Origin: Eubacterium sp.
GTDB lineage: Bacteria; Bacillota_A; Clostridia; Lachnospirales; Lachnospiraceae
DNA: 12,804 bases
Direction of reading: 5' to 3'
Assembly (NCBI GenBank): GCA_024687845.1
Contig: JAILEL010000293.1
Span: 1-12,804, forward strand
This document shows positions 254 through 12,804 of the stretch, piece by piece. The stretch's first letter is position 1, and each line of letters opens with the position of its first letter. Below the pieces are notes generated by a model. The model searched no databases. It was not told the origin of the DNA and saw only the letters and a program-made list of their open reading frames with translations. The position numbers were made by a program, and so were the translations under genes.

Positions 254-1642
254 ATGGCAGAAGATAAGAAAAACGTTTCAGACAATTTATATGAGAGTGC
301 AGTGGAATATGTGGAAAATATAACCCGCTTTGCACCTAAGACAAAACTTGAAAACACAAGGGTTTTATTAGAAGCACTTGGAAATCCTGATAAAAAAGCA
401 AAGGTAGTTCATGTTGCAGGAACTAACGGTAAAGGTTCCGTCTCAAAAATGATTTCTCTCATGCTGGAGGAAGCAGGATTTAAAACTGGTCTTTTTATCT
501 CACCGCATCTGATAAGGATGAATGAGAGAATATCAGTTAATGGTGTTGATATAAACGATAAGGATTTTGTTAAAGCTTTCAATAAAGTGATGTCAACAAC
601 TAAAAACCTTCTTAGTAGTAAAACTATTGAAGAAAACGGATTCCAACATCCTGCATATTTTGAATTTCTTTTTGCTATGGCGGCAACATATTTTGCAGAG
701 CAGGAATGTGATTTTGTGGTATATGAGACTGGACTCGGTGGACGCCTTGATGCTACAAATGTTTCGGCTCCGGAGGTTTCTGTTATAACCTCAATAGGAC
801 TGGATCATATGCAGTATCTGGGTGATACTGTAGAGAAGATAGCAGCTGAAAAGGCTGGAATAATAAAGAGTGGAATTCCTGTAGTTTTTAATACTGGCAG
901 TGATGTGGCTGATACGGTAATAATAGACAAATGTAACGAACTGAAATGTCAATCTGTTGATGTCAGACGGATAAAAAAATCAGATATATTGTCAAATGAT
1001 TTTATTTTAAAAAATTGTCAAAAATATAGTGTAAGTATTCAGGAAATAATAGACGAAGGCTTCATTGAATCTGTACTCCCTGCACGTTCACCTCTTTATC
1101 AGATAGATAACGCTACGACTGCAAGCCTTACATTTATTAGTTTAGGGCTTGATTTATCAGATATTAAAGGTATAATAGGTCGTGCACTGCGTCGATTCAG
1201 ATGGGATGGTAGAATGCAGTTTCTTTCTGATAACATAGTAATTGATGGTGCTCATAATGAAAATGCAGCCATGAAGGCTGTTGAATCGGTAAAAGAAATA
1301 TGCAGACGGGATAATTTCAACAAGGTCAGCATTCTTTTTGCGGTTTCAAGTGATAAGGATTATGATTCTATTATACGTATACTTACAGAAGGTCTCGATA
1401 TAGAAGATGTTTATGTCTCGGAGATTAATTCAGACAGAAAATGTGATATTAGTGAAGTAATGAAGATATTTCAGAAGTATCTTCCTAAGGAAAAGCATTT
1501 TGATGTTTATGGGACAAAGAATCTGAAAGAGGCATTTAAGCTTGCCAAGGGAGAACTTTTGAGTGATAATCTGCTGCTTATTATAGGTTCCTTATATATG
1601 GTAGGAGATATACTTGGAATGGTTTATAGTGAGAGTAAATAG
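254..1642 (+). CDS. folC: Folylpolyglutamate synthase / dihydrofolate synthase FolC
   Basis: A 462-residue ATP-dependent Mur-ligase-family enzyme that joins L-glutamate to dihydropteroate and/or to folates, making the polyglutamylated cytosolic cofactors. The P-loop GTNGKGS is at residues 56-62, followed by the folate-binding SPHLIRMNERI region (83-93). ETGLGGRLDATN (158-169) and GLDHMQYLGDT (182-191) follow. EKAGIIKSG (199-207) carries the lysine that is carbamylated in family members, and the C-terminal-domain motif DGAHN is at 331-335. Length is slightly above the usual 420-440, because about 15 hydrophilic residues precede the usual N-terminus. The ATG at 254 is the only ATG before the P-loop, and an in-frame stop lies just upstream (224-226). 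Its Shine-Dalgarno sequence is poor. Whether it is bifunctional (DHFS plus FPGS) cannot be read from sequence alone. It is probably a housekeeping neighbour of the signalling locus rather than part of it. Confidence 0.95.
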   Translation: MAEDKKNVSDNLYESAVEYVENITRFAPKTKLENTRVLLEALGNPDKKAKVVHVAGTNGKGSVSKMISLMLEEAGFKTGLFISPHLIRMNERISVNGVDINDKDFVKAFNKVMSTTKNLLSSKTIEENGFQHPAYFEFLFAMAATYFAEQECDFVVYETGLGGRLDATNVSAPEVSVITSIGLDHMQYLGDTVEKIAAEKAGIIKSGIPVVFNTGSDVADTVIIDKCNELKCQSVDVRRIKKSDILSNDFILKNCQKYSVSIQEIIDEGFIESVLPARSPLYQIDNATTASLTFISLGLDLSDIKGIIGRALRRFRWDGRMQFLSDNIVIDGAHNENAAMKAVESVKEICRRDNFNKVSILFAVSSDKDYDSIIRILTEGLDIEDVYVSEINSDRKCDISEVMKIFQKYLPKEKHFDVYGTKNLKEAFKLAKGELLSDNLLLIIGSLYMVGDILGMVYSESK

Positions 1643-1682
1643 AGGATTAAGATTATCCTTAAGAAAAAATGGAGATATATAA

Positions 1683-1838
1683 ATGATTGATTTTGATGAA
1701 GAGATTAAGAGATTTTCACCGAGCCTTGAGGTTAGCCAGGCAGATGAGGATATTTATAAAAATGATCTGAAGGATATAACCGATATAGTACTTCAGATGA
1801 CAGAGGATTTGAGAGGAAAGTTTACAAATGGCAGGTAG
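1683..1838 (+). CDS. Small acidic protein, 51 residues, unknown function
   Basis: A short open frame from ATG 1683 to TAG 1836-1838 with a good ribosome binding site: GGAG at 1671-1674, 8 bases before the start. The product begins MIDFDEEIKRFSPSLEVSQA and ends LRGKFTNGR. It is acidic, predicted mainly helical, and has no membrane segment, cysteine or recognisable domain. It starts 40 bases after folC and overlaps the first 11 bases of the next gene in another frame, so the two are likely translationally coupled. The coupling, the ribosome binding site and the lack of any other gene in this gap support it as real. I do not recognise the family. It could be a small partner of the TPR membrane protein that follows. 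Confidence 0.7.
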   Translation: MIDFDEEIKRFSPSLEVSQADEDIYKNDLKDITDIVLQMTEDLRGKFTNGR

Positions 1839-3087
1839 AAGAAGCTGTATCTATTGCGGAGAGACAGTAAGTGTTAATGGATATTGCAGATCCTGTGGAC
1901 TTGGCCAGTCCTTTCTCTGGAAGGCTGGAAATACATCCCTCTATTACTATAATATTGCTCTGGATAAAGCGGGTGTAAGGGATCTTAGTGGTGCTATCGA
2001 ATCACTTAAAATGTCACTTCGCTACAATAAATCGAATACTGATGCCAGAAATCTTCTGGGACTTATTTACTATGAAATGGGAGAGACTGTTTCGGCTCTT
2101 TCTGCATGGGTTATTAGTGTGAATTATAAGCCGAAGGATAATATTGCAGTCAGATACCTGAAGGAACTTCGTGATGATCCTGAGACGCTTAATAAAGCAA
2201 ATGAAGCAGCGAGGTTATTTAATAAAGGTTTGGAACTGGCTACAAGTCATGATTTTGATCTTGCAGTTATCCAGCTTAGAAAATGTATAACCATAAACCC
2301 TAATTTTGTAAAGGCATATCTGCTGCTCAGCCTGATTTCAAATGCTCAGAACAGAACTGGTGTTGCTAAAAAGTATATCACCAGAGTTATCGCAATAGAC
2401 AGAGGCAATCCTGATGCTTTGGACTTCTTAAGAGAAATGGGAGAATCAGATGCTGATATCAACCGACTTGCTGAAGAGGGAATGAATACTGATAATGATC
2501 TTTTTGATTATTATGGTATGGAACAATCCAAGGGCAGACGTCCTGCGAGAAAAATAGTTCCTGCAGAACGTGAGAAGGCCAGAAGCCTGAGACTTAAGAG
2601 ATATAAAGAACAGAGTCTATCAAGACTTTCCAATATATACATGATAGTAGGCATTCTTATAGGACTTGCTGTGTTTTATTTTCTGATGGCTCCGGCAATT
2701 AAAAGTGATTATGATGAGAAACTCAGAGAAAGTGAGACGAGCTTTAACCAGTCTATATCTGCCAAAAACAGTGAGATAGATAATCTTAAACAGGAACTTG
2801 AAAGTGTTTCCAGCAAGAATAATGATTATGAATCTAAGCAGAGTACAATGCAGAAAACTATTGATAATCTCAATGCTGAGGTTGAAACACTTAAGAGAAC
2901 TGTGGAAAGCGGTGGGCTAAATGCTGCAGCAGAGCAGCAGGAAAGTGATAAGATAAAAACTTCTTCAACAGGTGTTACTCTGGATCCAAATGCAGAAGAA
3001 ACAGTCAACTCAGCAGCTGACAGAAATAATGCAAATGTTATAGGAATCAGTGGTCCATCTATTGAAGATATTATTTCGAATGAGTGA
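1828..3087 (+). CDS. Zinc-ribbon, TPR, single-TM, coiled-coil membrane protein
   Basis: A 419-residue protein that appears to scaffold across the membrane. The N-terminus has a short zinc ribbon with CxxC pairs at C7/C10 and C20/C23. Residues about 37-200 are helical repeats of TPR type, with units such as AIESLKMSLRYNKSNTDARN and AVIQLRKCITINPNFVKAYL. A basic stretch (K258, R266) precedes one hydrophobic helix at about 268-289. A heptad-like coiled coil (about 295-360) and a low-complexity Ser/Asn/Ala-rich tail follow. By the positive-inside rule, the zinc ribbon and TPRs face the cytoplasm and the coiled coil faces outward. There is no signal peptide. Ribosome binding site AGAGGAAAG is at 1812-1820. 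The start lies inside the end of the upstream small gene. The TPRs suggest protein binding, perhaps of kinase-locus partners, but the actual role is unknown. Confidence 0.87.
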   Translation: MAGRRSCIYCGETVSVNGYCRSCGLGQSFLWKAGNTSLYYYNIALDKAGVRDLSGAIESLKMSLRYNKSNTDARNLLGLIYYEMGETVSALSAWVISVNYKPKDNIAVRYLKELRDDPETLNKANEAARLFNKGLELATSHDFDLAVIQLRKCITINPNFVKAYLLLSLISNAQNRTGVAKKYITRVIAIDRGNPDALDFLREMGESDADINRLAEEGMNTDNDLFDYYGMEQSKGRRPARKIVPAEREKARSLRLKRYKEQSLSRLSNIYMIVGILIGLAVFYFLMAPAIKSDYDEKLRESETSFNQSISAKNSEIDNLKQELESVSSKNNDYESKQSTMQKTIDNLNAEVETLKRTVESGGLNAAAEQQESDKIKTSSTGVTLDPNAEETVNSAADRNNANVIGISGPSIEDIISNE

Positions 3088-3097
3088 TTAGAGTTCA

Positions 3098-4240
3098 ATG
3101 TCTTTTAAATTCTATTTTAAACAAAAGATAAAACAGTTTATCCAGAATATTTATCTGCCGGCTGTATATAAAAAAGCATCTAAAGTCGTGAAGCCAGATA
3201 AGAAAAAGGTGATATTTGCAGATATGCATAGTGATGGTCTTCCATTTAGTATGCAGGCTATGTATAGTACGCTTGTACAAAAAGGGTATAAGCCACTTAT
3301 TTACACAGCTAATATCGGGAAAATGTCCTGGTTTTCTTCAATAAGATTCATGAGACGCTTTATGAAGGAATATGCAGGTGCAGGGTATGTTTTTATATGC
3401 AGTTATTTTCTTCCGGTTTCGTCCTGTAAGAAGAATCCGGATACCAAGGTTATCCAGCTCTGGCATTCAGGTGGCCTCATGAAGAAAATGGGGTATGATA
3501 CTAAGGAGGATATACCGGAATACTATAAGGGAAATGTAACTGCAAATTATGATCTTGTTACTGTGAGTTCAACTGTTTGCGAAAGAGTATGGGAGAGAGC
3601 TCTCAGACTTCCAAAAGGAATAACACATGCTACTGGACTTTCAAGAACAGATATGTATTTTGATAAGCAGTGGAATTTGAAACAAACTGAAAAGTTTTAT
3701 AAACTGTACCCGGAGGCAAAAGGAAAAAAAGTAGTACTTTATGCTCCATCATTTTCGGGAAATGCAGCTATGCCACAGTGCTTTGGAATTGAGACTGGTA
3801 TATATAAAATGATGCAAAAGTTCAGTGATGATTACTTTTTCATTGTGCGTTTACATCCACTACTTAGAAAAAAGTATCCTAAGTTTTGGACTAAGAAGGA
3901 TGCCGCACTTCCGACAGAATGTCTCCTTCCCGTGACAAATATTCTGATTACTGACTATTCCTCAGTTCTGTTTGATTATTGCATATATAAGAAACCATTT
4001 GTCCTGTATTGCCCTGACATTGAAGAATATAAGAGCGACAGAGGACTTTATGTGAATATAGAGGATTTTCCAGCACCTCTGGCAAAAAGCATAGATGAGT
4101 TGGAAGATGTAATGCGTAACAGATTATTTTTCGAATATGACGAAGAAGACTATGAAGGCTTCTGTGAGAAATACATGGGTATGTGTGACGGAAAGAGTTC
4201 AGACAGAATACTAAATATAATACAGGCCGGCAGATTGTAA
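3098..4240 (+). CDS. CDP-glycerol glycerophosphotransferase family protein (TagB/TagF-like)
   Basis: A 380-residue enzyme of the family that moves glycerol-phosphate or ribitol-phosphate from a CDP donor onto teichoic-acid-like polymers at the inner membrane face. Family hallmarks in order are VIQLWHSGGLMKKMGYD (118-134, likely catalytic H123), SRTDMYFD (182-189), KKVVLYAPSF (210-219), IVRLHP (249-254, second conserved H253), ILITDYSSVLFDY (282-294) and PDIEEYKSDRGLY (306-318). The length fits a bare catalytic domain without the N-terminal extensions of large TagF proteins. The basic N-terminus (KFYFKQKIKQF) could be a membrane-surface anchor, and there is no TM segment. It starts 10 bases after the TPR gene, so it is co-transcribed with it. 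The donor and acceptor cannot be read from sequence. No other teichoic acid genes are visible, which makes it unusual here. Confidence 0.9.
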   Translation: MSFKFYFKQKIKQFIQNIYLPAVYKKASKVVKPDKKKVIFADMHSDGLPFSMQAMYSTLVQKGYKPLIYTANIGKMSWFSSIRFMRRFMKEYAGAGYVFICSYFLPVSSCKKNPDTKVIQLWHSGGLMKKMGYDTKEDIPEYYKGNVTANYDLVTVSSTVCERVWERALRLPKGITHATGLSRTDMYFDKQWNLKQTEKFYKLYPEAKGKKVVLYAPSFSGNAAMPQCFGIETGIYKMMQKFSDDYFFIVRLHPLLRKKYPKFWTKKDAALPTECLLPVTNILITDYSSVLFDYCIYKKPFVLYCPDIEEYKSDRGLYVNIEDFPAPLAKSIDELEDVMRNRLFFEYDEEDYEGFCEKYMGMCDGKSSDRILNIIQAGRL

Positions 4241-4270
4241 AAATATATAATTGATAGTTGGGACAAGGGT

Positions 4271-5248
4271 ATGCAAAGAAGATGCTTGAAATGCATGAAA
4301 ATCTTTAATATTCCAAGTGGATATGAAGGAGAGCCTTTTTGCTGCCCTTTTTGTGGTACAGTGGAAAATCCATATCAGGTGATTCCATATGCACTTATTA
4401 AGGGAACAGTTCTGCAGAACCGCTATCTGATAGGTGATGTAATTGGTTTTGGAGGCTTCGGAATTACATATATTGCATTTGATTATATAAATAATAAAGC
4501 AGTTGCAATTAAGGAATATTATCCAAGAGGTGTAGCTGGAAGAATCTCAGGTAATAAGGTTTCAAGACTTTCTACAGATGGAGGAGTTTTGTTCGAGGAA
4601 GGCAGGGTCAGGTTTATCCAGGAAGCAAAAAATCTTGTCAGATTCAATTATCTACCAGGAATTGTTTCTATATTTGATTTTTTTGAAACTAACAATACCG
4701 CATATATCGTTATGGAGCTTTTGGATGGATATAATGTTAAGCAGATTATTCAGAAAAAAGGTACTCCAAAGATAGAGTTTATATATCGGATGGCTGAGGA
4801 TATATGTAGCGTATTAGGTGTAATTCATGCAGGCGGAATAATACATAGGGACATAAGTGCAGATAATATATTTATCTGCCGGACCGGTGAATTCAAGCTG
4901 ATAGATTTTGGCGCTGCAAGACAGAGCTTTATGCTGAATCTGAAAAGTTCCGAACTGATTCTGAAGAAGGGCTATGCACCTGTAGAACAATATAATGTTA
5001 AAGGAAATATAGGTCCCTGGACGGATATTTATGCACTGGCAGTGACAATGTATATTATCCTGACTGGACGTTCGATTCCAGAGGCAATCTCCAGATCTCC
5101 GGGCGGAAATGACATAATTCCACCAGGAAGCTTCAATCCTCGAATACCTAAACATCTAAATGATGCAATCATGAAAGCACTTAGCTTTTATCCACAGAAC
5201 AGATATCAGAATGCTATAGAATTCAGAGAAGAGATTATGAGAAGATAG
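4271..5248 (+). CDS. Soluble Ser/Thr protein kinase with N-terminal zinc ribbon
   Basis: A 325-residue eukaryotic-like kinase, expected to phosphorylate Ser/Thr of neighbouring proteins and so create FHA ligands. An N-terminal zinc ribbon has C5/C8 and C25/C28. The kinase domain starts near residue 47. The Gly-rich loop GFGGFG is at 59-64, ATP-binding K81 is in VAIKEYYP, and the helix-C Glu is probably E118. The catalytic loop HRDISADN is 192-199 (D194, N199), the DFG is D212, and the activation/APE-like segment KKGYAPVEQY lies at 232-241, followed by GPWTDIYALAVT. The catalytic loop has Ser196 where most kinases have Lys. Unlike PknB-type kinases it has no TM helix or PASTA repeats and ends with the kinase fold. 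The start at 4271 keeps the first CxxC; AAGGG at 4265-4269 lies close to it. The response regulator follows after 5 bases. Confidence 0.93.
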   Translation: MQRRCLKCMKIFNIPSGYEGEPFCCPFCGTVENPYQVIPYALIKGTVLQNRYLIGDVIGFGGFGITYIAFDYINNKAVAIKEYYPRGVAGRISGNKVSRLSTDGGVLFEEGRVRFIQEAKNLVRFNYLPGIVSIFDFFETNNTAYIVMELLDGYNVKQIIQKKGTPKIEFIYRMAEDICSVLGVIHAGGIIHRDISADNIFICRTGEFKLIDFGAARQSFMLNLKSSELILKKGYAPVEQYNVKGNIGPWTDIYALAVTMYIILTGRSIPEAISRSPGGNDIIPPGSFNPRIPKHLNDAIMKALSFYPQNRYQNAIEFREEIMRR

Positions 5249-5253
5249 ATAAA

Positions 5254-5973
5254 ATGAAAATAGGATTTTGTGCGGACAATAAAGAACAGATTGAATATTA
5301 TATCGATATTATCAATCAGCAGAAGCTGACTCTCAGAGGCGATATCATTAAAGTATATACACCAGAACAGCTTTTGTTTGATGTTGAGGAAAACTTTTTT
5401 GATTCAGATATTCTTGTTACGGATATCTATTATGAGGGTGTCAGCTATAATGGAATAGAAGTGGTAAGAAAAATAAATGAGTCTTATCCTCTATGTCAGG
5501 TTATCTATAGCTCTAAATTTGTTGAGTACATAGACTACACCTTTGAAACAGAATATGTGTATTTTATTCAGAGGAAAAATCTTCATAAGCTGCTTGGAAA
5601 GGCACTTCAGAAGGCAAGGGAAAAATATCAGTTGGCGAGCCATGTTGATATATTCGAATTCTATTCCAATGGAATAAAAAGATATGTAAAAATAAGTGAT
5701 ATTTATTACATAGAACGAAATGACAGAAGGGTGAATATATATACTCCGACTGAAATATATCAGACAAGTCTGTCAATTAAACAGATATGTGATAAATTAG
5801 AGGGCTCCAATATTGTAAGAATAAGCGGAAGCACGGCGGTTAATGTTGAACATATACAGTCCTACAATATGCTGTATCTTAACCTTGAAAACAGCAACAG
5901 AAGACTAGAGATATCTCCCCGCTACAATGAAAAAACAAATGAGATATATGAAAATTATTGGAAAAACAAATAA
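5254..5973 (+). CDS. LytTR-family response regulator
   Basis: A 239-residue two-domain transcription regulator. Residues 1-125 are a receiver-like domain. The likely phospho-acceptor is D57 in ILVTDIYYEGVSYNGIEVV, the Ser/Thr switch is in VIYSS (S86/S87), and the expected Lys lies in FIQRKN (K108). The N-terminal acidic pocket reads C-A-D-N (D8) rather than the usual D-D/E-D pair, and the usual K-P is absent, so phosphorylation may be altered. Residues about 130-235 form a LytTR DNA-binding domain (YYIERNDRRVNIYT, then VRISGSTAVNVEHIQS). LytTR proteins bind short imperfect direct repeats upstream of targets. No histidine kinase gene is in the window; its neighbour is the Ser/Thr kinase, 5 bases upstream. 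It is the last gene of the left operon and is followed at once by a hairpin terminator. Confidence 0.9.
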   Translation: MKIGFCADNKEQIEYYIDIINQQKLTLRGDIIKVYTPEQLLFDVEENFFDSDILVTDIYYEGVSYNGIEVVRKINESYPLCQVIYSSKFVEYIDYTFETEYVYFIQRKNLHKLLGKALQKAREKYQLASHVDIFEFYSNGIKRYVKISDIYYIERNDRRVNIYTPTEIYQTSLSIKQICDKLEGSNIVRISGSTAVNVEHIQSYNMLYLNLENSNRRLEISPRYNEKTNEIYENYWKNK

Positions 5974-5974
5974 A

Positions 5975-5991
5975 CCCGCCGTTTCGGCGGG
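5975..5991. terminator. Bidirectional hairpin terminator between convergent genes
   Basis: A perfect 7-bp GC stem, CCCGCCG (5975-5981) with CGGCGGG (5985-5991), has a TTT loop and starts one base after the response-regulator stop codon. Read on the - strand it is followed by TTTATTTGTTTTT, a good U-tract, so it fits best as the intrinsic terminator of the ABC exporter gene. On the + strand the tail is CTTACTGG, so termination of the left operon there would be weaker. Confidence 0.85.
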
Positions 5992-6009
5992 CTTACTGGT
6001 GAGAGAATA

Positions 6010-8445
6010 TTAACTTCTCTCATCTTTTTTTATGTTTGTTACAAGAACAAGTCTTGCCATTACTGTAAATATAAGTACGAATGCAAGCATGATTCCCCAA
6101 ACCATAAGCAGATGCTCATTTGACGTAGCATAATGAACTGCATCTGTTGCTTTATGGGCTACATCCATTTTTATAAATGCACTATGATCAAAATCAAGTC
6201 CCATCTGTTCGTTTTCGAGTGGTGGACCAATTCCTATAAATGCGTCTTTCATCTTCTCGGCAGACCTTAGCTTAAGATTACCAAGATCAACCGTAGCTCC
6301 ATATCCTTCCATAGACCAACGACATACTACAAAGTAGGATACTATACTGATTGCTCCTTCGAGTTCAAATAGAAGTCCCGAGAAAAGAATCTGTGGCATA
6401 AGTAATATAGGAGCTACTGTCATGGCACGATCTGCATTTGTAAAAAGTGCTGAAACGAAGATTCCCATAGCAGCTGCTGACATTGAGGAAAGAATTGTAG
6501 TTATAGCAAATTCTAAAAACGCAGGAAGAAGTACGTTTGTGGAACACATCGCCTTCAGATATCCATCATCAAACTGACTGGCATCATATACTAATGCTAT
6601 TTTAATCTTTAGCACTATAACCAGAGCTCCAATAATTATGAGTCCCTGTATTATACAGAGAAGACTTAGGACAAAAATCTTAGATAATATATAACTTCCT
6701 AGATTAAGCCCTGTCATATATTCTCGTTTTAGAATGACTCGTTCCTTACATATTTCCTGTATGGCGCTTAGGATTCCGACCCAGAATGCACAACAGGATA
6801 ATGCGAATAAGATATTATTGGTAGTTTCATATATATTAAACAGATCTTCGTCAGCTACAAGGCTTATCAGTACAGCTAGAAGCGGCGCCTGTAGGAGAAG
6901 CAGGAGCATTCTCTGTTTATCGTTAAGAAGCAGATGTATGTATCTGCCAGTAAGTACTCCGAATTGTCTGAAATATCCTTTTTTTGTACTAGTTGATATT
7001 GCAGTACGACCCACTGTGTTATCAATACCAGCATCCCTGTCAGTACGATATTGATTGAATCTGTCTCTCCAAAAATCAGGATTTTCAGTTATCATTTCAT
7101 AGACGTTTACAATATCGTCAGTTCCGAAGAACTTGAGTGCCTCCTGATAGCTGCCTGCAAAACAGAGTTTACCGCCCATTCCCATAAATACAATTTTGTC
7201 ATATTCTGGAAGCGCAAGAGTACTATGAGTAACTAAGATAACAGTTTTTCCAGATGCTGTCATACCCTTGAGGGTTCGAACCAGATTTCTCTCTGTTCCA
7301 GGATCAAGTCCTGATGTTGGCTCGTCTAAGAAGAAGAGGTTAGGGTCTGTAAGAAGCTCAACGGCGATTGAGGCACGTTTTTTCTGTCCTCCAGAAAGAC
7401 TTCTTACCATAGCATCTTTTCTATGAGAAAGCTCGACAGTATCGATTACCTTGAGAACTATCTGATCAATCTCTTCAGCACTGACATCCTTTGGAAGTCG
7501 TAGACGTGCACTGTATTTAAGCATGTCATAAACAGTCAGATTATCATAAACGATATCCTGCTGAGGGACATAACCGATTATATTTTTAAGAGCAGCATAG
7601 TTAGCGTACAGATCAACATCATTTACAAGAACCACGCCACCTGTAGGAGGTGTATAACCACTTATACAGTTCATGATTGATGTTTTTCCGGCTCCAGAAC
7701 CACCGATTATTGCAACAAGCTCACCAGGATTGATATTGAGACAGACATCATTACAGATAGTAAGATTATTCTTTCCAACCTGCTTTACTACATGCTGAGC
7801 CTCGACACTGATACCAGAACGTGCAACATTATAAACAATCTCACCGCCGGTATAAACTAATTTGCTGTTCGTGATGAGAATGATATCTTTTTCGCGGAGC
7901 TGTTTTCTTCCATGAACACGCTCTCCGTTTACAAGAACGCCATTGGTGCTTCCATTATCATGAATGAAATAATTTCCGCCGGATTCCTGGATGATTGCAT
8001 GCTGATGGGAAACACTGATATGATCCAGAACTATATCATTTCTTGGATCACGTCCAATGCTGATAGACTGCTTTCCTTTAAGAGGAATAGAATTCCATAC
8101 TACGTTCTGTTGTTTTATAGAACATACAAAAAGAACTCCATATTCCTGATTGTTATTGCCCATGATTCTTATGTAGGTTCCGTCACGAAGCGCAGTGGAA
8201 ACAATCTTTTTGCCGTGATAAAAGAGTCCGTTGGTACTATCGGGAAGATTTTCAATCTTCACGTGACCATTTTCCATATAAATGCATCCGTGATGACGTG
8301 ATGCAAATTTGGACTGAAGGATAATATCATTATCCTCTGCTCTTCCGAAGGTGATGACCTCTTTATTGAAAGCTGCGAGTCGAACTTCATAAGGCTTTAT
8401 CTCACCATCAGAGATATACAAATACATATTTGCTGGAAAAGCCAT
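6010..8445 (-). CDS. ABC-2 type exporter with two N-terminal FHA domains (ATPase and permease fused)
   Basis: An 811-residue half-transporter in which phosphothreonine-reading domains precede the motor. FHA1 (about 30-105) has GR 34-35, SRHH 49-52 and DSTNG 69-73. FHA2 (about 125-200) has GR 131-132, SVSHQH 144-149 and GSTNG 165-169. The ABC ATPase (about 215-440) has Walker A GGSGAGKTS 248-256, Q-loop YVPQQ 292-296, signature LSGGQ 350-354, Walker B FFLDEP 371-376 and H-loop H407. The membrane domain (about 510-805) has hydrophobic helices near 513-530, 546-562, 585-612, 641-668, 675-695 and 779-803, with a probable extracytoplasmic segment around 712-770. This order (FHA, ATPase, ABC-2 membrane) matches mycobacterial Rv1747-like and ABCG-type exporters, usually acting as dimers. 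Substrate is unknown. Start ATG 8445-8443 has AAGGACAAGG just upstream. It is transcribed alone, convergent with the kinase operon and divergent from the PP2C operon. Confidence 0.94.
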   Translation of the reverse strand: MAFPANMYLYISDGEIKPYEVRLAAFNKEVITFGRAEDNDIILQSKFASRHHGCIYMENGHVKIENLPDSTNGLFYHGKKIVSTALRDGTYIRIMGNNNQEYGVLFVCSIKQQNVVWNSIPLKGKQSISIGRDPRNDIVLDHISVSHQHAIIQESGGNYFIHDNGSTNGVLVNGERVHGRKQLREKDIILITNSKLVYTGGEIVYNVARSGISVEAQHVVKQVGKNNLTICNDVCLNINPGELVAIIGGSGAGKTSIMNCISGYTPPTGGVVLVNDVDLYANYAALKNIIGYVPQQDIVYDNLTVYDMLKYSARLRLPKDVSAEEIDQIVLKVIDTVELSHRKDAMVRSLSGGQKKRASIAVELLTDPNLFFLDEPTSGLDPGTERNLVRTLKGMTASGKTVILVTHSTLALPEYDKIVFMGMGGKLCFAGSYQEALKFFGTDDIVNVYEMITENPDFWRDRFNQYRTDRDAGIDNTVGRTAISTSTKKGYFRQFGVLTGRYIHLLLNDKQRMLLLLLQAPLLAVLISLVADEDLFNIYETTNNILFALSCCAFWVGILSAIQEICKERVILKREYMTGLNLGSYILSKIFVLSLLCIIQGLIIIGALVIVLKIKIALVYDASQFDDGYLKAMCSTNVLLPAFLEFAITTILSSMSAAAMGIFVSALFTNADRAMTVAPILLMPQILFSGLLFELEGAISIVSYFVVCRWSMEGYGATVDLGNLKLRSAEKMKDAFIGIGPPLENEQMGLDFDHSAFIKMDVAHKATDAVHYATSNEHLLMVWGIMLAFVLIFTVMARLVLVTNIKKDERS

Positions 8446-8490
8446 AATACCTTGTCCTTTTTTTTAGATTTGGAATTGCTGGGTAAAAGG

Positions 8491-8506
8491 TTGCCTTTAG
8501 TGGCAA
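8491..8506 (-). other. Small hairpin in the leader of the FHA-ABC gene
   Basis: TTGCC (8491-8495) pairs with GGCAA (8502-8506) around a 6-base loop. It would lie in the untranslated leader of the - strand exporter gene if that gene starts at the candidate promoter at 8525-8554. The stem is only 5 bp, so it may be chance. I recognise no riboswitch. Confidence 0.25.
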
Positions 8507-8524
8507 AACAACAATCCAAACAAA

Positions 8525-8554
8525 ATAATACAACAAAATGTCCTTTTTGTTCAA
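8525..8554 (-). promoter_or_regulatory. Candidate promoter for the FHA-ABC exporter gene
   Basis: On the - strand a -35-like TTGAAC (8554 to 8549) and a -10-like TATTAT (8530 to 8525) are 18 bp apart. Transcription would start near 8518 and give a leader of about 70 bases before the ATG. The -10 matches the sigma-A consensus at 5 of 6 positions and the -35 at 4 of 6. The surrounding DNA is very AT-rich, so chance matches are common. Confidence 0.4.
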
Positions 8555-8669
8555 GTGTTTTTATCAGTTAAAGAGTGTGATTCAAATGAAAAAATCAATA
8601 ATAGATTATAATGTTTTTATTCTTGAGTAGATATAAAATATACAATGTGAAGAGATTGTAAAAAATGAA

Positions 8670-8707
8670 AATATTATTGCATAATTCATAAATTATGCAA
8701 TAATATT
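8670..8707. repeat. Perfect 17-bp inverted repeat (operator-like)
   Basis: AATATTATTGCATAATT (8670-8686) is the exact reverse complement of 8691-8707, separated by CATA. It sits in the divergent intergenic region, immediately upstream of the candidate PP2C promoter. The core AATTATGCAA occurs a third time at 8712-8721, overlapping the likely -35. This suggests a dimeric DNA-binding protein site. A terminator role on the + strand is unlikely because no T-tract follows; on the - strand a T-rich stretch does follow, but no gene enters from that side. Confidence 0.75.
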
Positions 8708-8711
8708 CGTG

Positions 8712-8721
8712 AATTATGCAA
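8712..8721 (+). repeat. Third copy of the operator core AATTATGCAA
   Basis: The 10-base core of the adjacent inverted repeat recurs here in the same orientation as the copy at 8691-8700. The start-to-start distance is 21 bp, close to two turns of the DNA helix, so proteins bound at both would lie on the same face. This copy overlaps the region expected for the -35 element of the PP2C operon promoter. Confidence 0.65.
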
Positions 8722-8745
8722 ACAAAAGATGATTATATCTATAAT
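8717..8745 (+). promoter_or_regulatory. Candidate promoter for the PP2C-FHA-VWA operon
   Basis: A perfect -10 hexamer TATAAT lies at 8740-8745. At 17-bp spacing the -35 position (8717-8722) reads TGCAAA, a poor match, as expected for a promoter that depends on an activator or is overlapped by an operator. The start would be near 8752, leaving a leader of about 80 bases. The repeat core at 8712-8721 overlaps this -35. Confidence 0.55.
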
Positions 8746-8787
8746 ATGATAAAATTGTAGCAGTTTTGTTCTAATGTCTGAAGGTGA

Positions 8788-8807
8788 TCGTTTAAGAAGG
8801 TAAACGA
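8788..8807 (+). other. Leader hairpin upstream of the PP2C gene
   Basis: TCGTTTA (8788-8794) pairs perfectly with TAAACGA (8801-8807) around the 6-base loop AGAAGG. It lies in the predicted 5' leader, 15 bases before the real Shine-Dalgarno sequence (8822-8827). It may affect mRNA stability or ribosome loading. No known riboswitch family is recognisable. Confidence 0.35.
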
Positions 8808-8821
8808 CCCAATATATGAGT

Positions 8822-8827
8822 GGAGGG
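8822..8827 (+). promoter_or_regulatory. Ribosome binding site for the PP2C gene (GTG start)
   Basis: GGAGGG is placed 7 bases before the GTG at 8835-8837. It decides this non-ATG start, which also puts the conserved N-terminal PP2C motif at the usual distance from the protein's beginning. Confidence 0.85.
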
Positions 8828-8834
8828 CTATTAA

Positions 8835-9557
8835 GTGATAACGTATAAAAAATATTCCAATGTAGGAAACAGAGAAGTAAACGAAGATAGTATTGGTGAT
8901 TTAGGAACAGAATATGGACACATGTTCGTACTGGCAGATGGACTGGGGGGACATGGCCATGGCGAAAATGCATCGGCCATAGCAGTTGAAACTGCACTTG
9001 AGCTTTTATCAAAGGGTCAGGTAATGGATATTTTGGACAACAGCTTTGCTCTTGCTCAGCAGAAAGTGCTTATGGAGCAGAATGAGAATCCAGCTCTTGC
9101 CGACATGAAGACTACCATGGTTGCTTTGCTTTTTGTGAATAATTCAGCTAGATGGGGACATATAGGTGACAGTCGTTTATATCATTTCAGAAATGGTAAA
9201 CTGAATTCGCGTACATTAGATCATAGCGTGCCTCAGATGCTGGTTAATATTGGGGAAATAACAGAAGATGAGATTAGAGGACATGAAGATCGAAACAGGC
9301 TTCTTAGAGTTATCGGCAGTCCTTGGGAGTCCAAGTCTTATGATATTGCTGATCCAATCGAACTTAAGAAAAAAGATGCTTTTCTTCTCTGTTCTGATGG
9401 GTTTTGGGAGTTGATTGATGAAAAGGCAATGCAAAAATTCCTGAAAAAAGCATCCACTGTAACAGAATGGATGGAACTCATGATTGAAGAGGTTAATAGG
9501 AACGGTGTTGGAACGAATATGGATAACAATTCGGCAATTGCAATCTGGGTTGATTAG
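8835..9557 (+). CDS. PP2C-family (PPM) Ser/Thr protein phosphatase
   Basis: A 240-residue soluble, metal-dependent phosphatase predicted to remove phosphate from Ser/Thr, opposing the kinase at 4271-5248. Motifs in order are GNREVNED (11-18), LADGLGGHG (33-41, metal-binding D35), KTTMVALLF (92-100), WGHIGDSRLY (107-116), DHSVPQML (129-136) followed by the GEITEDEI segment, RLLRVIG (155-161), LLCSDGFWEL (184-193, metal-binding D188) and DNNSAIAI (230-237, D230). All key acidic residues are present and the length is typical of PppA/Stp-like bacterial enzymes, with no membrane segment or extra domain. The GTG start has a strong ribosome binding site. It is the first gene of the right-hand operon, behind the operator-like repeats, and 106 bases separate it from the next start. 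Confidence 0.95.
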   Translation: MITYKKYSNVGNREVNEDSIGDLGTEYGHMFVLADGLGGHGHGENASAIAVETALELLSKGQVMDILDNSFALAQQKVLMEQNENPALADMKTTMVALLFVNNSARWGHIGDSRLYHFRNGKLNSRTLDHSVPQMLVNIGEITEDEIRGHEDRNRLLRVIGSPWESKSYDIADPIELKKKDAFLLCSDGFWELIDEKAMQKFLKKASTVTEWMELMIEEVNRNGVGTNMDNNSAIAIWVD

Positions 9558-9562
9558 ATATC

Positions 9563-9603
9563 GGGGGATTACAAAATAAAGACCCCCTAACATTGAATGG
9601 GGT
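9563..9603 (+). other. Competing G/C-run hairpins in the PP2C-FHA gap
   Basis: GGGGG (9563-9567), CCCCC (9583-9587) and GGGGT (9599-9603) allow two mutually exclusive stems: 9563-9567 with 9583-9587, or ACCCC 9582-9586 with 9599-9603. A run of six T lies later, at 9639-9644, but not directly after a stem, so this is not a clear terminator. It could modulate the mRNA between the phosphatase and FHA genes. Confidence 0.3.
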
Positions 9604-9651
9604 AATTAAGGTAAAATAATAACTGAAAATAATTAGGGTTTTTTGAGAATC

Positions 9652-9659
9652 GAGGGGAG
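9652..9659 (+). promoter_or_regulatory. Ribosome binding site fixing the FHA gene start at 9664
   Basis: GAGGGGAG ends four bases before the ATG at 9664. It supports that start over an in-frame TTG at 9643, which would place the ribosome binding site inside the coding sequence. Confidence 0.85.
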
Positions 9660-9663
9660 TAGT

Positions 9664-10323
9664 ATGGCTGTAGTAAGATGTGATAAGGGGCTTCATTTCT
9701 ATGACAATGACAAATTCAGTTATTGTCCTCACTGCAATAAGGGTAATTCATCAAACAATGCATGGACTGATATGGGCGGAGATGATATAAATAGTCAGGT
9801 TACGCAGTCTGTGAAGGAGATTGATCCTAATGTAATAGAAACGGTTGGGGTTATAAATGAGATAAATATACAGGCTCCTCCGATATCTCCATTGATTTTT
9901 GATGAAAAAATACGTGTTGATGATATTGATGATGACGTTACGCAGGCATATTATTCAGCATCCAAAGGGAATGATTTTATAACCGGCTGGCTTGTATGTG
10001 TCAGTGGCCCGGAAAAAGGCAGAGATTATCGTATCTTCCATGGTGTGAATAAGATGGGGCGTGGTGATAACCTGGATATTGTAGTAAAGGGCGATAAAGA
10101 AATATCTCGAGACAAAGTATGTTCTGTTGTCTATGACGACAGGTCTAACAAGTTCTATATTATACCATATACAAATGGAATGGTTTATCTGAATGATACT
10201 CACATTTTAGAAGCAACTGAGATGGTTACAGGGGATACTATTTCTATGGGAAATAGTCAGTTTGAATTCATTGCGTTTTGCAAGGGAGAAAGGAAATGGA
10301 ATCAGACTCAGAAGGAAATGTAG
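9664..10323 (+). CDS. Zinc-binding FHA-domain adaptor protein
   Basis: A 219-residue cytosolic protein that probably reads or carries phosphothreonine for the locus. The N-terminus has a compact metal-site pattern, C6, H11, C21 and C24 (VRCDKGLHFYDNDKFSYCPHC region). An acidic, probably disordered linker (about 30-105) holds two V-T-Q motifs, at T47 and T93; the second sits in the acidic DIDDDVTQAYY. The FHA domain (about 108-205) has GR at 132-133, SR at 148-149 and TNG at 170-172, but K151 stands where the conserved His of SRxH is expected. A threonine in an acidic segment just before a FHA domain recalls GarA/OdhI, where phosphorylation there makes the protein bind its own FHA. It has no TM or signal peptide. 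The next gene begins within about 25 bases of its stop or slightly before it. Confidence 0.85.
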   Translation: MAVVRCDKGLHFYDNDKFSYCPHCNKGNSSNNAWTDMGGDDINSQVTQSVKEIDPNVIETVGVINEINIQAPPISPLIFDEKIRVDDIDDDVTQAYYSASKGNDFITGWLVCVSGPEKGRDYRIFHGVNKMGRGDNLDIVVKGDKEISRDKVCSVVYDDRSNKFYIIPYTNGMVYLNDTHILEATEMVTGDTISMGNSQFEFIAFCKGERKWNQTQKEM

Positions 10324-10333
10324 ATCGTCTTAG

Positions 10334-10339
10334 AAAGGG
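10334..10339 (+). promoter_or_regulatory. Ribosome binding site for the VWA-FHA receptor gene
   Basis: AAAGGG lies 7 bases before the ATG at 10347. A second site, GGGAG at 10284-10288, precedes another in-frame ATG at 10296, so the true start is not settled. The 10347 start gives a conventional signal peptide. Confidence 0.55.
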
Positions 10340-10346
10340 TTACTTT

Positions 10347-12305
10347 ATGGATAGATTCATGATTACAAAAACACACAGAACAATAATTGCAGTCATAAGT
10401 GCTATGATTATTTTTGTGCTGGTATTTGGAAATGGATACTCTACGTATGCGGAAGCAGGAATACTAAAAGCTGAAGATGCTACTGCTCAGGACGCAACCT
10501 TAAGTGAAAGTACATCATCAGTTAATCTGACAAATGAGGTAGATGAAATATTCCGCATAGAGCAGGTAAGGTCTGTTGCACCGTATATACGTGCTTTCTT
10601 TTATCCTGATGATAATCTCTATAGTGATTCTGTTTTGAGAGCTGTACTTGATGATAAGAGATATATTGCAACTGAATGTGATTCATTTGCAAATAAAGGT
10701 TTCGGAATTGATTACTATTTTCTTATAGATAATTCAAAATCGGTAGATGCTGAAGAATTTGAGGCAGTCAAGGAACAGATAGCCAGTATGCCATCCATGA
10801 TGAATGATAAGGATAGCATTTCAATCTATGTGGTCGGTGACTTCGCAGAAAAAAAGGCTGAGAAGCTTGGTAAAAGTAATGAGGCTCAGCTAAGAGGCGT
10901 TCTTGATGAAATAGAGAGAGATGGGATGCATACAAATCTCTATAATGCTATAAAGGATGCAGCAACTGATATAGCAAGTCAGGATACTGATAATGTTTTT
11001 GAAGAGTCTGAGGATCTGGAAGGGGCTCTTGGTCTTGGGAAAAATCGTAGTGTTATTGTTGCAGTTACAGATGGTGTTAATGATTCTGAAAATGGATATG
11101 GCAAGGATGAAACCATATCTAAACTGAACGATAACTGCATTCCACTTTATCTTATCCAGCAGAAAATGCAGGGCGAGAGTGGAAGTGAAAGCAGATCCGA
11201 CATTCAGCAGGTTGTAAGACAGACTGGTGGTGAATTCCTGCTTACTGCTGATCATCCAAGTGACAGTATAGTTGGAGCTCTGGTAAAAAGACTTAGTTCC
11301 TGTATGGTTGCTACATTTGAAATAGACAGCAATAAGGTAGATACATCACCGAGAAGATTTAACATTGAATATGGTCCGGCAGATGGCTCGTCAGAATTCA
11401 GATGCTTTAATACAAAGGACATAATTATAAGCAAGCATATGAAGGATAGCTCAGCTCCTGAGGTTAAATCGATAAAGTTTACAGGTGAGCATTCGATTGA
11501 AGTTACATTTTCAGAACCGGTATCAGGTGAGGCGAATAATGTAAGTTTATATGAAGTGAGTGATGAGAGAAATAAAACCTACAAGCCTACAGGTGCCGAT
11601 TATTCAGTTGATGGAAGAGACAAAATAGTATTATCGTTTTCTGATACATTTTATAACGGAAAACATGAAATAAAGATTGCTTCTGGAATAACTGATAATT
11701 CAGAAGAGGCAAATAAACTTGGAGAAGTTAAAAAAGAAGTTAAAGCTGAAAATTTTGAAGATTATGTAGAAGAAAAGGAAAGCTTCTTTATAAAGTACTG
11801 GTGGGTTATTATTCTGGCATTTATCATTATCGTAATAATAATTCTCATTATCATATTCAGTGTTATAAAGAAGAGAAAAGGAATAGTTGTAAATGATGGT
11901 AAGGTAGTTCTGGCTGATCAGATGGAAGAAAAGGTCCATGTGAAGATAGTAAAGAATCAGACAACGCTTCAGCAACCAGGCCAGCCTGTACAGCCGATAC
12001 CAAAACGAGGTATGCCGATAACTCTTAATCTTCGTTCAGGTAACCAGCCTGTTAAGAGTATTCAGGCTCATATAGATGGTAGTGTTATTGTTGGAAGAGC
12101 AAATATTTGTGATGTAATAATAGACGATGTAACAATGTCAAGACAGCATTTTGCAATAGAAAATGATGGTGGAACGCTTTACATTATGGATCTTGATACA
12201 AAGAACGGAACCTTTGTAAATGGTGTGAAACTTACAGGACGAAGAAGGCTTGAACAAAATGACAGAATTAATGCCGGTTCGCTGGACATAATAATCAGGT
12301 GGTAG
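10347..12305 (+). CDS. VWA / Ig-like / single-TM / FHA membrane receptor
   Basis: A 652-residue membrane protein from the ATG at 10347; a start at 10296 would add 17 residues and overlap the upstream gene by 28 bases. A signal peptide (about 1-37) ends in YSTYAEA. The von Willebrand A domain (about 120-320) has a complete metal-ion site: DNSKS (D128, S130, S132), T196 and D242 in VTDG. Residues about 368-452 form an Ig/SbsA-like beta domain (VTFSEPVSG, IVLSFSD, IASGITD). One TM helix spans about 485-507 and is followed by a basic KKRK stop-transfer. The cytosolic tail ends in a complete FHA domain (about 557-652) with GR 583-584, SRQH 598-601 and KNGT 619-622. The VWA domain would bind ligand or protein outside, while FHA binds phosphothreonine inside. 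It is co-transcribed with the FHA adaptor and lies 4 bases from the next gene. Confidence 0.9.
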   Translation: MDRFMITKTHRTIIAVISAMIIFVLVFGNGYSTYAEAGILKAEDATAQDATLSESTSSVNLTNEVDEIFRIEQVRSVAPYIRAFFYPDDNLYSDSVLRAVLDDKRYIATECDSFANKGFGIDYYFLIDNSKSVDAEEFEAVKEQIASMPSMMNDKDSISIYVVGDFAEKKAEKLGKSNEAQLRGVLDEIERDGMHTNLYNAIKDAATDIASQDTDNVFEESEDLEGALGLGKNRSVIVAVTDGVNDSENGYGKDETISKLNDNCIPLYLIQQKMQGESGSESRSDIQQVVRQTGGEFLLTADHPSDSIVGALVKRLSSCMVATFEIDSNKVDTSPRRFNIEYGPADGSSEFRCFNTKDIIISKHMKDSSAPEVKSIKFTGEHSIEVTFSEPVSGEANNVSLYEVSDERNKTYKPTGADYSVDGRDKIVLSFSDTFYNGKHEIKIASGITDNSEEANKLGEVKKEVKAENFEDYVEEKESFFIKYWWVIILAFIIIVIIILIIIFSVIKKRKGIVVNDGKVVLADQMEEKVHVKIVKNQTTLQQPGQPVQPIPKRGMPITLNLRSGNQPVKSIQAHIDGSVIVGRANICDVIIDDVTMSRQHFAIENDGGTLYIMDLDTKNGTFVNGVKLTGRRRLEQNDRINAGSLDIIIRW

Positions 12306-12309
12306 AAGA

Positions 12310-12804
12310 ATGAAGAACATGAAGAAAATAACAATCTGTTTCATAATTGTAACACTTGTTATTACTATGCAATGTTTTGGAATAATGGCCAAAGGCAGGG
12401 ACGATATTGCTGGGAATGAAATAGGAAGTGTTGGGGTAAAAGAACCGGGGGAAGAGGATTCAGATCCTATAATTGAACCAACTACAGCGGCACCTTCAGA
12501 GGAACCAACCACTGAAACACCAACGACAGAGGCACCAACAACAGAGGCACCAACAACAGAGTCGCCTACCACTGAGAAGAAAACGACAGAGGCTCCGACG
12601 ACAGAAGCACCAACAACGGAGGCACCAACAACGGAAGCGCCAACGGAGGCACCAACGACAGAGGCACCAAAAAACGAAACAACATCTGATAGTGTTAATG
12701 AAACGGAAGCTCCTACACAGGCAACAACTGAAGCTGCAACAGAGGCTACTACCGCAGTAAAAACAGGAAACGTTCAGCAACAGACTACAGAATATAAACC
12801 AGAA
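12310..12804 (+). CDS. Secreted protein with PTTEA-repeat stalk (3' truncated by window)
   Basis: An open frame from ATG 12310 to the window end (165 codons, no stop). The N-terminus, MKNMKKITIC then FIIVTLVITMQCFGIMAKG, is a signal peptide or N-terminal anchor. It is followed by an acidic stretch (GEEDSDP) and then Thr/Pro/Glu/Ala repeats of PTTEA type from residue 66 to 120, with degenerate Thr-rich sequence after that. Such repeats form extended, often O-glycosylated stalks on surface proteins and are potential Thr-phosphorylation targets only if cytosolic, which this one should not be. It begins 4 bases after the receptor stop codon with a weak ribosome binding site, so it is probably coupled to it. 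The functional domain, perhaps an anchor or enzyme, lies beyond the window. I do not recognise the family. Confidence 0.75.
   Translation, partial: MKNMKKITICFIIVTLVITMQCFGIMAKGRDDIAGNEIGSVGVKEPGEEDSDPIIEPTTAAPSEEPTTETPTTEAPTTEAPTTESPTTEKKTTEAPTTEAPTTEAPTTEAPTEAPTTEAPKNETTSDSVNETEAPTQATTEAATEATTAVKTGNVQQQTTEYKPE
12505..12669 (+). repeat. 15-bp coding minisatellite (PTTEA)
   Basis: About eleven units of CCA-ACN-ACN-GAR-GCN encode PTTEA and near variants. One unit is shortened by a codon (PTEA, residues 111-114) and another has Lys for Pro (KTTEA, residues 91-95). Wobble bases differ among units, which suggests age or selection on the protein, but several neighbours are identical over 12 or more bases and could slip during replication in whole-codon steps. 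Confidence 0.85.

Follow-up and report, generated by a model that had tools for sequence, protein, structure and literature searches.

A Linked Ser/Thr Kinase, PP2C, FHA, and VWA Gene Locus in Eubacterium sp. and Its Relation to Described FHA-Based Systems

Described Systems and the Locus

Several systems in which Ser/Thr protein kinases (STPKs) are associated with FHA proteins have been described, the closest to the locus considered here being Rv1747/PknF, the T7SSe variant of the type VII secretion system (T7SS), OdhI and GarA, ArnA and ArnB of Sulfolobus, and the PpkA/PppA/Fha set of the type VI secretion system (T6SS). The locus lies on a stretch of 12,804 nucleotides (the window) from Eubacterium sp. 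(contig JAILEL010000293.1, forward strand), a gut bacterium, probably of the rumen. The part studied (4271–12804) harbors genes for a STPK, a PP2C phosphatase, an ABC exporter with two FHA domains, a small zinc-ribbon FHA protein (hereafter, ZnFHA), and a membrane protein embedding a VWA and an FHA domain (hereafter, VWA-FHA). All positions refer to the window, and L- and G-numbers indicate loci of relatives and relatives' genomes, respectively. An earlier reading, made from the letters alone (the sequence-only reading), considered these genes as a single phosphothreonine circuit controlling the export or decoration of a surface component.

The open reading frame (ORF) list contains ten main ORFs in the following order: a folC-like gene, the genes for a TPR protein and a CDP-glycerol glycerophosphotransferase (GPT), then those for the kinase, a LytTR protein, the exporter (reverse strand), the PP2C, ZnFHA, the VWA-Big_5-transmembrane (TM)-FHA protein, and a Thr/Pro-rich ORF truncated where the window stops. 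Domains were called by a Pfam/NCBIfam profile scan of the window ORFs, and the features of the locus are the following:

4271–5248, + strand: Ser/Thr protein kinase with HRD and DFG motifs and an N-terminal zinc ribbon recognized by eye (Pkinase, 2.7e-27)
5254–5973, + strand: LytTR DNA-binding protein (Pfam)
6010–8445, − strand: FHA-FHA-ABC exporter, 811 aa, single polypeptide (FHA, 4.5e-33, two stretches; ABC_tran, 1.7e-29)
8131–8418, − strand: exporter FHA domain 1, about aa 10–105, with GR, SRHH, and STNG (Pfam and alignment)
7846–8088, − strand: exporter FHA domain 2, about aa 120–200, with GR, SHQH, and STNG (Pfam and alignment)
7126–7803, − strand: ABC nucleotide-binding domain, about aa 215–440 (Pfam/NCBIfam)
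6046–6978, − strand: ABC-2 type transmembrane domain, about aa 490–800 (Pfam and hydrophobicity)
8835–9557, + strand: PP2C-type Ser/Thr phosphatase (PP2C_2, 8.2e-14)
9664–10323, + strand: ZnFHA, with an N-terminal zinc ribbon, a low-confidence linker, and a divergent FHA fold (motifs and predicted model)
9940–9942, + strand: candidate phospho-acceptor Thr93, in the acidic motif DDDVTQAY 5' of the FHA part
10296–12305, + strand: VWA protein, with an N-terminal hydrophobic helix, VWA, Big_5, a TM helix, and FHA (FHA, 4.8e-19; VWA, 1.9e-7)
12012–12302, + strand: C-terminal FHA domain of the VWA protein, with GR, SRQH, and KNG (Pfam, alignment, and model)
12310–12804, + strand: ORF with a hydrophobic N-terminus, Thr/Pro-rich, cut by the window end (ORF list)

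The kinase, PP2C, exporter, and VWA genes, which the sequence-only reading had placed side by side, were each confirmed by a Pfam/NCBIfam match; its gene list omitted the LytTR regulator at 5254–5973, and the exporter gene actually lies on the opposite strand.

Rv1747 and pknF share an operon (PMC3908365); phosphorylation by PknF promotes condensation of the Rv1747 FHA region, an effect reversed by PstP (PMC9312465), and the Rv1747 substrate is uncertain, phosphatidylinositol mannosides (PIMs) having been proposed (PMC5549992). As in Rv1747, the window exporter embeds two N-terminal FHA domains, a nucleotide-binding domain, and a transmembrane domain in one chain, its second FHA domain matches the Rv1747 FHA chain 6cah (5.1e-9), and a STPK is encoded close by; unlike in the two-gene pknF-Rv1747 operon, the LytTR gene lies in between and the kinase gene is on the opposite strand. 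The disordered phosphorylated linker between FHA1 and FHA2 of Rv1747 is lacking, there being no room for a long linker, as the GR motifs (positions 33 and 130) are 97 residues apart, that is, about one domain length. Moreover, the window adds VWA-FHA, ZnFHA, PP2C, and LytTR genes to the couple, and its kinase, unlike PknF, has a zinc ribbon, no hydrophobic TM stretch, and PpkA as the closest PDB sequence match (1.1e-43, versus 5e-30 for PknB).

The T6SS set PpkA/PppA/Fha shares with the window a kinase-PP2C-FHA logic. PpkA carries a C-terminal VWA domain (PMC1262709), whereas kinase and VWA are separate proteins in the window. No T6SS family was found above cut-off among the scanned window ORFs (Pfam/NCBIfam). 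VWA, PP2C, and kinase genes also occur together in the TerY-P triads, where the TerY-type VWA protein is cytosolic; the VWA domain of the window, in contrast, is predicted outside the cell and is followed by a TM helix and a cytosolic FHA domain. No ter gene was called in the window, and no literature was found on TerY together with FHA, vWA, and PP2C, the only combination in which TerY was sought.

Kinases, phosphatases, and FHA proteins were reported by Garrett, Higginson, and Palmer in new T7SS variants, and a STPK, a PPM phosphatase, and FHA proteins in T7SSe of Bacillota (TseC, TseD, TseF, TseJ); TscE of T7SSc, a cytosolic protein, is the one VWA component mentioned in the available text of the same paper, and the FHA domains of EssC dock on the EssB pseudokinase in a phosphorylation-independent manner (PMC11217815). 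The window likewise joins a STPK and a PPM phosphatase to FHA proteins, but no TsxC/EssC ATPase and no WXG100 gene were called in it (Pfam), and VWA-FHA and FHA-ABC proteins are not among the T7SSe components described in the available text (PMC11217815).

Once OdhI has been phosphorylated at Thr14/Thr15, its FHA domain binds the phosphorylated N-terminal part of the same protein (PMC2784874). Window ZnFHA resembles OdhI and GarA in being a small protein with an acidic, Thr-bearing part preceding the FHA fold, and a fold search with its predicted model (high-confidence FHA fold over about residues 105–205) retrieved OdhI and GarA among the top PDB matches (8p5x, 4qcj, and 7rj3 occupying ranks 1, 3, and 4). 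It differs from them in the additional zinc ribbon and the degenerate SRxH motif; no ODH (2-oxoglutarate dehydrogenase) gene is present in the window. ArnA and ArnB, in turn, are a zinc-finger FHA and a VWA protein under Ser/Thr kinase control (PMC6509490). A zinc-ribbon FHA protein is likewise paired with a VWA protein here, the ZnFHA gene being directly upstream of the VWA-FHA gene in 15 of the 22 VWA-anchored loci described below; the type of ribbon may differ from that of ArnA. The fold matches of the VWA-FHA model include the ArnAB complex 8s05; since whole-chain alignments gave a high root-mean-square deviation, only single domains are trusted. The Arn system differs in being archaeal, and the available text of PMC6509490 describes neither a membrane receptor with its own FHA domain nor an FHA exporter.

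The sequence-only reading knew of no characterized system of this exact composition. On the one hand, Rv1747, T7SSe, OdhI/GarA, and ArnA share features with it; on the other hand, no VWA-FHA/FHA-ABC locus of Clostridia emerged from the titles and abstract openings covered by our literature search, most subscription papers being outside its reach. The locus probably represents a new form of an already-known type, that is, kinase-PP2C-FHA control of export.

Linkage of the Genes in Related Genomes

The locus is real and conserved, and not an artefact. A contig scan with a VWA-FHA alignment retrieved seven loci, all from metagenome-assembled genomes (MAGs) labeled Lachnospiraceae, Eubacterium, or Ruminococcus, with a water-buffalo rumen or abomasum origin for two of them; a VWA-FHA protein (P0121) 99% identical to that of the window was found on a 28,787-base contig. 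L001, L002, and L003 hold most of the window genes at 49–65% identity: 63–64% for the exporter, which shares the VWA cluster there, 60–65% for the PP2C, 49% for the kinase compared to the last STPK of L002 and L003, and 57% for the LytTR protein compared to the one encoded beside the L002 locus, the only one of the three with a whole LytTR gene. These three loci also embed genes for a STPK-FHA protein, one more PP2C, additional ZnFHA and FHA-TM proteins, and an FHA-TM-trypsin-like protease, an FHA-subtilase being encoded in L031. The locus accounts for 12 of 17 (G001), 9 of 15 (G002), and 10 of 18 (G003) FHA places of the whole genome, together with two PP2C_2 places out of four, four, and five, respectively. 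Trypsin-like or subtilase proteases fused to FHA are located at L002:11616–13415, L031:9008–12097, and L041:4807–6291, and five consecutive Ser/Thr kinase genes lie beside a VWA-FHA/ZnFHA/PP2C set at L038:1–7192.

The VWA-FHA alignment matched 199 of the 299 genomes of the family of G001 (E ≤ 0.001), most of the matches listed corresponding to the FHA part alone. Sixteen loci were fetched from these matches: 15 encode VWA and FHA within a single ORF, and L045 breaks off ahead of the FHA part; G010 and G114 have VWA-part matches outside the fetched loci. VWA-FHA is thus present in at least 16 of the 299 genomes (G001 included), and the exporter (E ≤ 1e-100) in at least 12, both counts being lower bounds, as up to four (VWA-FHA) or three (exporter) candidates were scored per genome.

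Out of 25 VWA-bearing loci, L004 (a 3.4 kb contig) and L005 and L006 (VWA without FHA) were left out, and the remaining 22 were analyzed (the window, L001–L003, L007, L034–L049, and L061, with L035 and L061 belonging to the same genome, G248). Within 8 kb of the VWA gene, a STPK was found in 19 of the 22, PP2C in 18, ZnFHA in 17, another FHA gene in 15, LytTR in six, and FHA2-ABC in five. In these 8-kb counts, 21 of the 22 VWA loci were evaluated, L045 falling below the class cut-offs because its VWA gene is cut; the exporter-anchored locus L053, whose first FHA is cut, fell below them as well, and both stay in n. Spurious ORFs hid the first ZnFHA of L001 and some genes of L042. Scoring all the ORFs of the whole stretches gave 19 (STPK), 21 (PP2C), and 18 (ZnFHA) of the 22. 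Where ZnFHA immediately precedes VWA-FHA, the two genes overlap in all the loci but one. None of these gene classes was found in 12 backbone loci (172,221 bases) serving as controls. Since the gene types recur together in relatives and the controls had none of them, their co-occurrence is more than chance. The linkage across related genomes that the sequence-only reading had proposed as its own check is therefore borne out for most parts, and many Lachnospiraceae-type genomes keep the kinase, PP2C, multi-FHA, and VWA genes linked.

The exporter shows a different distribution. Among 15 exporter-anchored loci (window included), 11 have a STPK within 8 kb, and VWA-FHA, ZnFHA, and PP2C are each above cut-off in five (the window, L001–L003, and L034), with weak PP2C matches in L050 and L052.

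As for T7SS genes, WXG100 was found in nine of the 21 genomes with VWA genes; in G020, G141, G083, G150, and G248, no more than about 11 kb separates a VWA-FHA gene from WXG100 genes, and in G020 and G248 an EssC-size FtsK protein with FHA is encoded on the same contig. No WXG100 match was obtained in G001–G003, G006, G007, and G047, and in G001, G002, G003, and G047 no protein of EssC size scored strongly against PF01580; all these genomes are MAGs and may be incomplete (G001 is even without an FtsK match). In L060 and L061, VWA-FHA genes share the contig with an EssC-size FHA-bearing protein and WXG100 genes. Two large proteins adjoining VWA-FHA (L043:9648–16790, 2380 aa; L044:6927–11873, 1648 aa) have N- and C-terminal hydrophobic helices, a layout like that of TsdI/TseI of T7SSd/e.

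Domains of the Proteins and Surroundings of the Locus

The kinase and the PP2C carry the usual motifs and appear to be active; the PP2C matches the Stp1-like model NF033484 at 8.9e-51, below the cut-off of that model. The receiver part of the LytTR protein was not called by Pfam. Four FHA domains in three proteins had been proposed: four FHA folds are indeed present, but Pfam PF00498 calls three, and these three, as well as the kinase, keep their key motifs. Both exporter FHA domains retain the phosphothreonine-binding residues in the alignment. The VWA domain exhibits the DxSxS motif of the metal ion-dependent adhesion site (MIDAS) at aa 145, and two parts of the protein, at aa 25 and aa 495–532, are hydrophobic (helices 26–44 and 502–525 in the model); the VWA domain is predicted outside the cell and the FHA tail in the cytosol. 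The latter matches TIGR03354 (TagH) at 3e-7, far below cut-off.

The fourth FHA fold is that of ZnFHA, for which PF00498 gave no call in the window and PF16697 alone did, at 1.2e-3, below cut-off; its SRxH phosphate-binding motif is degenerate and reads SRDKV. Thirty-two ZnFHA-type proteins were collected, 30 of which have the zinc-ribbon pattern. Two acidic-Thr-hydrophobic patterns were sought ahead of the FHA part, and each is matched by 21 of the 31 landmark-bearing proteins (means of 0.9 and 0.2 in shuffles); both were chosen after inspecting the sequences, and the window protein matches only one of them. The Thr motif is conserved upstream of the FHA part, but the FHA of the window protein lacks the canonical SRxH; a similar acidic stretch, DDSEDVT, was noticed by eye between the TM helix and the FHA domain of the L002 and L003 membrane FHA proteins. 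By analogy with OdhI, we infer that Thr93 is a phospho-acceptor, and the FHA domains of the exporter and of the VWA protein could bind this phosphosite.

The ORF cut by the window end, previously considered a secreted stalk output, probably represents the N-terminal part of a further membrane FHA protein, since genes with the same position and type of start are found in L001–L003: in L002 and L003, the gene in its place encodes a protein whose hydrophobic N-terminus is followed by Thr-rich sequence, a TM helix, and an FHA domain, and in L001 a similar protein with an additional VWA-like part (weak VWA match). Fifteen proteins matched the cut ORF in a protein search (E ≤ 1e-10), several of them with an extensin- or mucin-type composition, the widest (P0154, 172 aa) having 80% coverage and 36% identity.

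The surroundings of these genes include the following features:

254–4240, + strand: backbone of folC (Mur ligase domains), a TPR protein whose zinc ribbon was recognized by eye, and GPT (Pfam)
5969–6024, no strand assigned: stem-loops resembling terminators, one set per strand, where the convergent LytTR and exporter genes meet (consensus match only)
8670–8707, no strand assigned: perfect inverted repeat with 17-nt arms and a 4-nt gap, between the divergent exporter and PP2C genes (sequence)

The inverted repeat is a possible operator; related ATTGCA/TGCAAT half-sites were seen by eye 5' of PP2C in L002 and L003, and not in L001. A near-copy of one arm follows at 8705–8721. Rfam and tRNA scans of the window revealed no RNA family and no tRNA, and a promoter scan was no richer than shuffles (36 found versus a shuffle mean of 40.5).

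The TPR protein was matched in 59 of the 61 genomes of a genus-level set (G001–G006 included), in 15 of them over the C-terminal half only. In L073–L077, folC-TPR-GPT is followed by a gap and by a membrane protein of 189–190 aa, with ispF (by eye) next in L074–L077; L078 and L081 resemble these loci, a spurious ORF hides that stretch in L079, GPT does not adjoin TPR in L083 and L084, and L080 and L082 end too early. No match of the kinase, FHA, and PP2C classes used was retrieved from the 12 fetched backbone regions. Between GPT and the 189 aa protein, L006 has genes for VWA, ZnFHA-like, and two STPK proteins in this slot. The window locus thus occupies a variable slot. This slot, after folC/TPR-GPT (4240–4271 in the window, 9773–9947 in L006), contains kinase/FHA/VWA genes in some genomes only. 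L006:12024–14489 encodes a kinase-like domain followed by a long part resembling, by eye, an extracellular solute-binding protein, possibly a nutrient-sensing kinase.

GPT and the TPR protein were considered as outputs and dropped, as folC-TPR-GPT with the membrane protein occurs without kinase/FHA genes in L073–L077. For the same reason, GPT is no evidence for a role in teichoic acid or decoration, and the proposed decoration of a surface component is not supported. A function in anti-phage defence was also discarded, judging from matches of single genes, the PADLOC matches of the kinase (PD-T4-6, mad6), the ABC ATPase (mad3, mad8), and the PP2C (PDC-M21C) looking like general domain matches.

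Possible Readings of the Locus

The presence of a VWA protein with a cytosolic FHA domain and of an adaptor with a candidate phosphosite makes a scaffold joining the VWA protein and the exporter the simplest reading: the locus would encode a phosphothreonine scaffold at the cell envelope, coupling the surface VWA protein to the exporter, a reading to which, on sequence grounds, we give an even chance. Threonines of the ZnFHA adaptor (Thr93 being the candidate), and perhaps of further partners, would be phosphorylated by the kinase; exporter and VWA protein would dock on these marks through their FHA domains, which would gather or gate the exporter beside the surface VWA protein, and the PP2C would reverse this docking. 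ZnFHA would be a switch in the OdhI/GarA manner, and the LytTR protein would set expression. The exporter would act like Rv1747/PknF, with a ligand provided by another protein or by another part of its own chain; the ligand likely lies elsewhere, since there is no linker room between the two FHA domains.

Several data weigh against this scaffold. The FHA domain of window ZnFHA may be unable to bind phosphothreonine because the canonical SRxH is lost, and the two acidic-Thr patterns carry the limits given above. The exporter gene of the window is on the opposite strand and placed differently from those of L001–L003. The exporter is present in only five of the 22 VWA loci, VWA-FHA in only those five of the 15 exporter loci, and in G131 the two genes are on different contigs; since their co-occurrence is so limited, exporter and VWA cassette are separable modules meeting in the group of the window. 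Lastly, the VWA-FHA loci near WXG100 genes (L047–L049 and L061) are without ZnFHA. The single system of the sequence-only reading is therefore likely for the linked VWA/ZnFHA/PP2C/STPK core, and we are less sure of the exporter as part of it, all ten other exporter loci examined, one of them from G131, being without a VWA-FHA gene.

This separability would be expected if two independent modules shared an island, namely a Rv1747-like kinase/FHA-ABC module and a VWA-FHA/ZnFHA/PP2C one, each with its own kinase and signal. The ten loci in question (L050–L059) have a STPK match of some score in eight cases (all but L051 and L058) and, in L051, just a weak VWA-like stretch (score 19) without FHA; 17 of the 22 VWA loci lack the exporter, and the exporter gene of the window is divergent. 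In L001, L002, L003, and L034, however, the exporter gene shares strand and gene run with VWA-FHA, STPK-FHA, PP2C, and ZnFHA, and we consider two independent modules unlikely. It is improbable, moreover, that VWA-FHA and the kinase/PP2C pair are a T7SSe-like accessory serving an EssC-type ATPase encoded elsewhere in the genome: the vicinity to WXG100 in five genomes, the EssC-size FtsK protein on the same contig in G020 and G248, and the T7SSe composition (PMC11217815) speak for it, but the window itself has no called T7SS gene, and the nearest genomes (G001, G002, G003, and G047, all possibly incomplete MAGs) gave neither WXG100 nor a strong EssC-size match. The least probable of these alternatives, to which we give very little credit, is that the FHA domains are fixed docking folds assembling independently of phosphorylation; the degenerate FHA of ZnFHA and the EssC/EssB precedent (PMC11217815) agree with it, whereas the exporter and VWA FHA domains keep their binding residues and an active-looking kinase and PP2C adjoin them.

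Beyond the scaffold, we tentatively suggest a portable envelope-signaling cassette of Lachnospiraceae, with the core order PP2C, ZnFHA, VWA-TM-FHA, STPK-FHA, PP2C, and ZnFHA, in which the VWA domain would read an outside signal and phosphothreonine-FHA contacts would plug into interchangeable outputs; we rate it as possible rather than probable.

If the scaffold reading is true, one phosphothreonine code would wire an extracellular VWA protein to an exporter and to surface proteases in gut Clostridia, and Rv1747-type transporters would be linked with kinase-controlled type VII systems. With 9 to 12 FHA places in a single locus of 13–19 kb, these bacteria would then provide a natural test bed for how FHA specificity is kept apart between neighbors, and the recurrence of the genes in relatives points to a little-studied bacterial signaling system rather than to chance neighbors.

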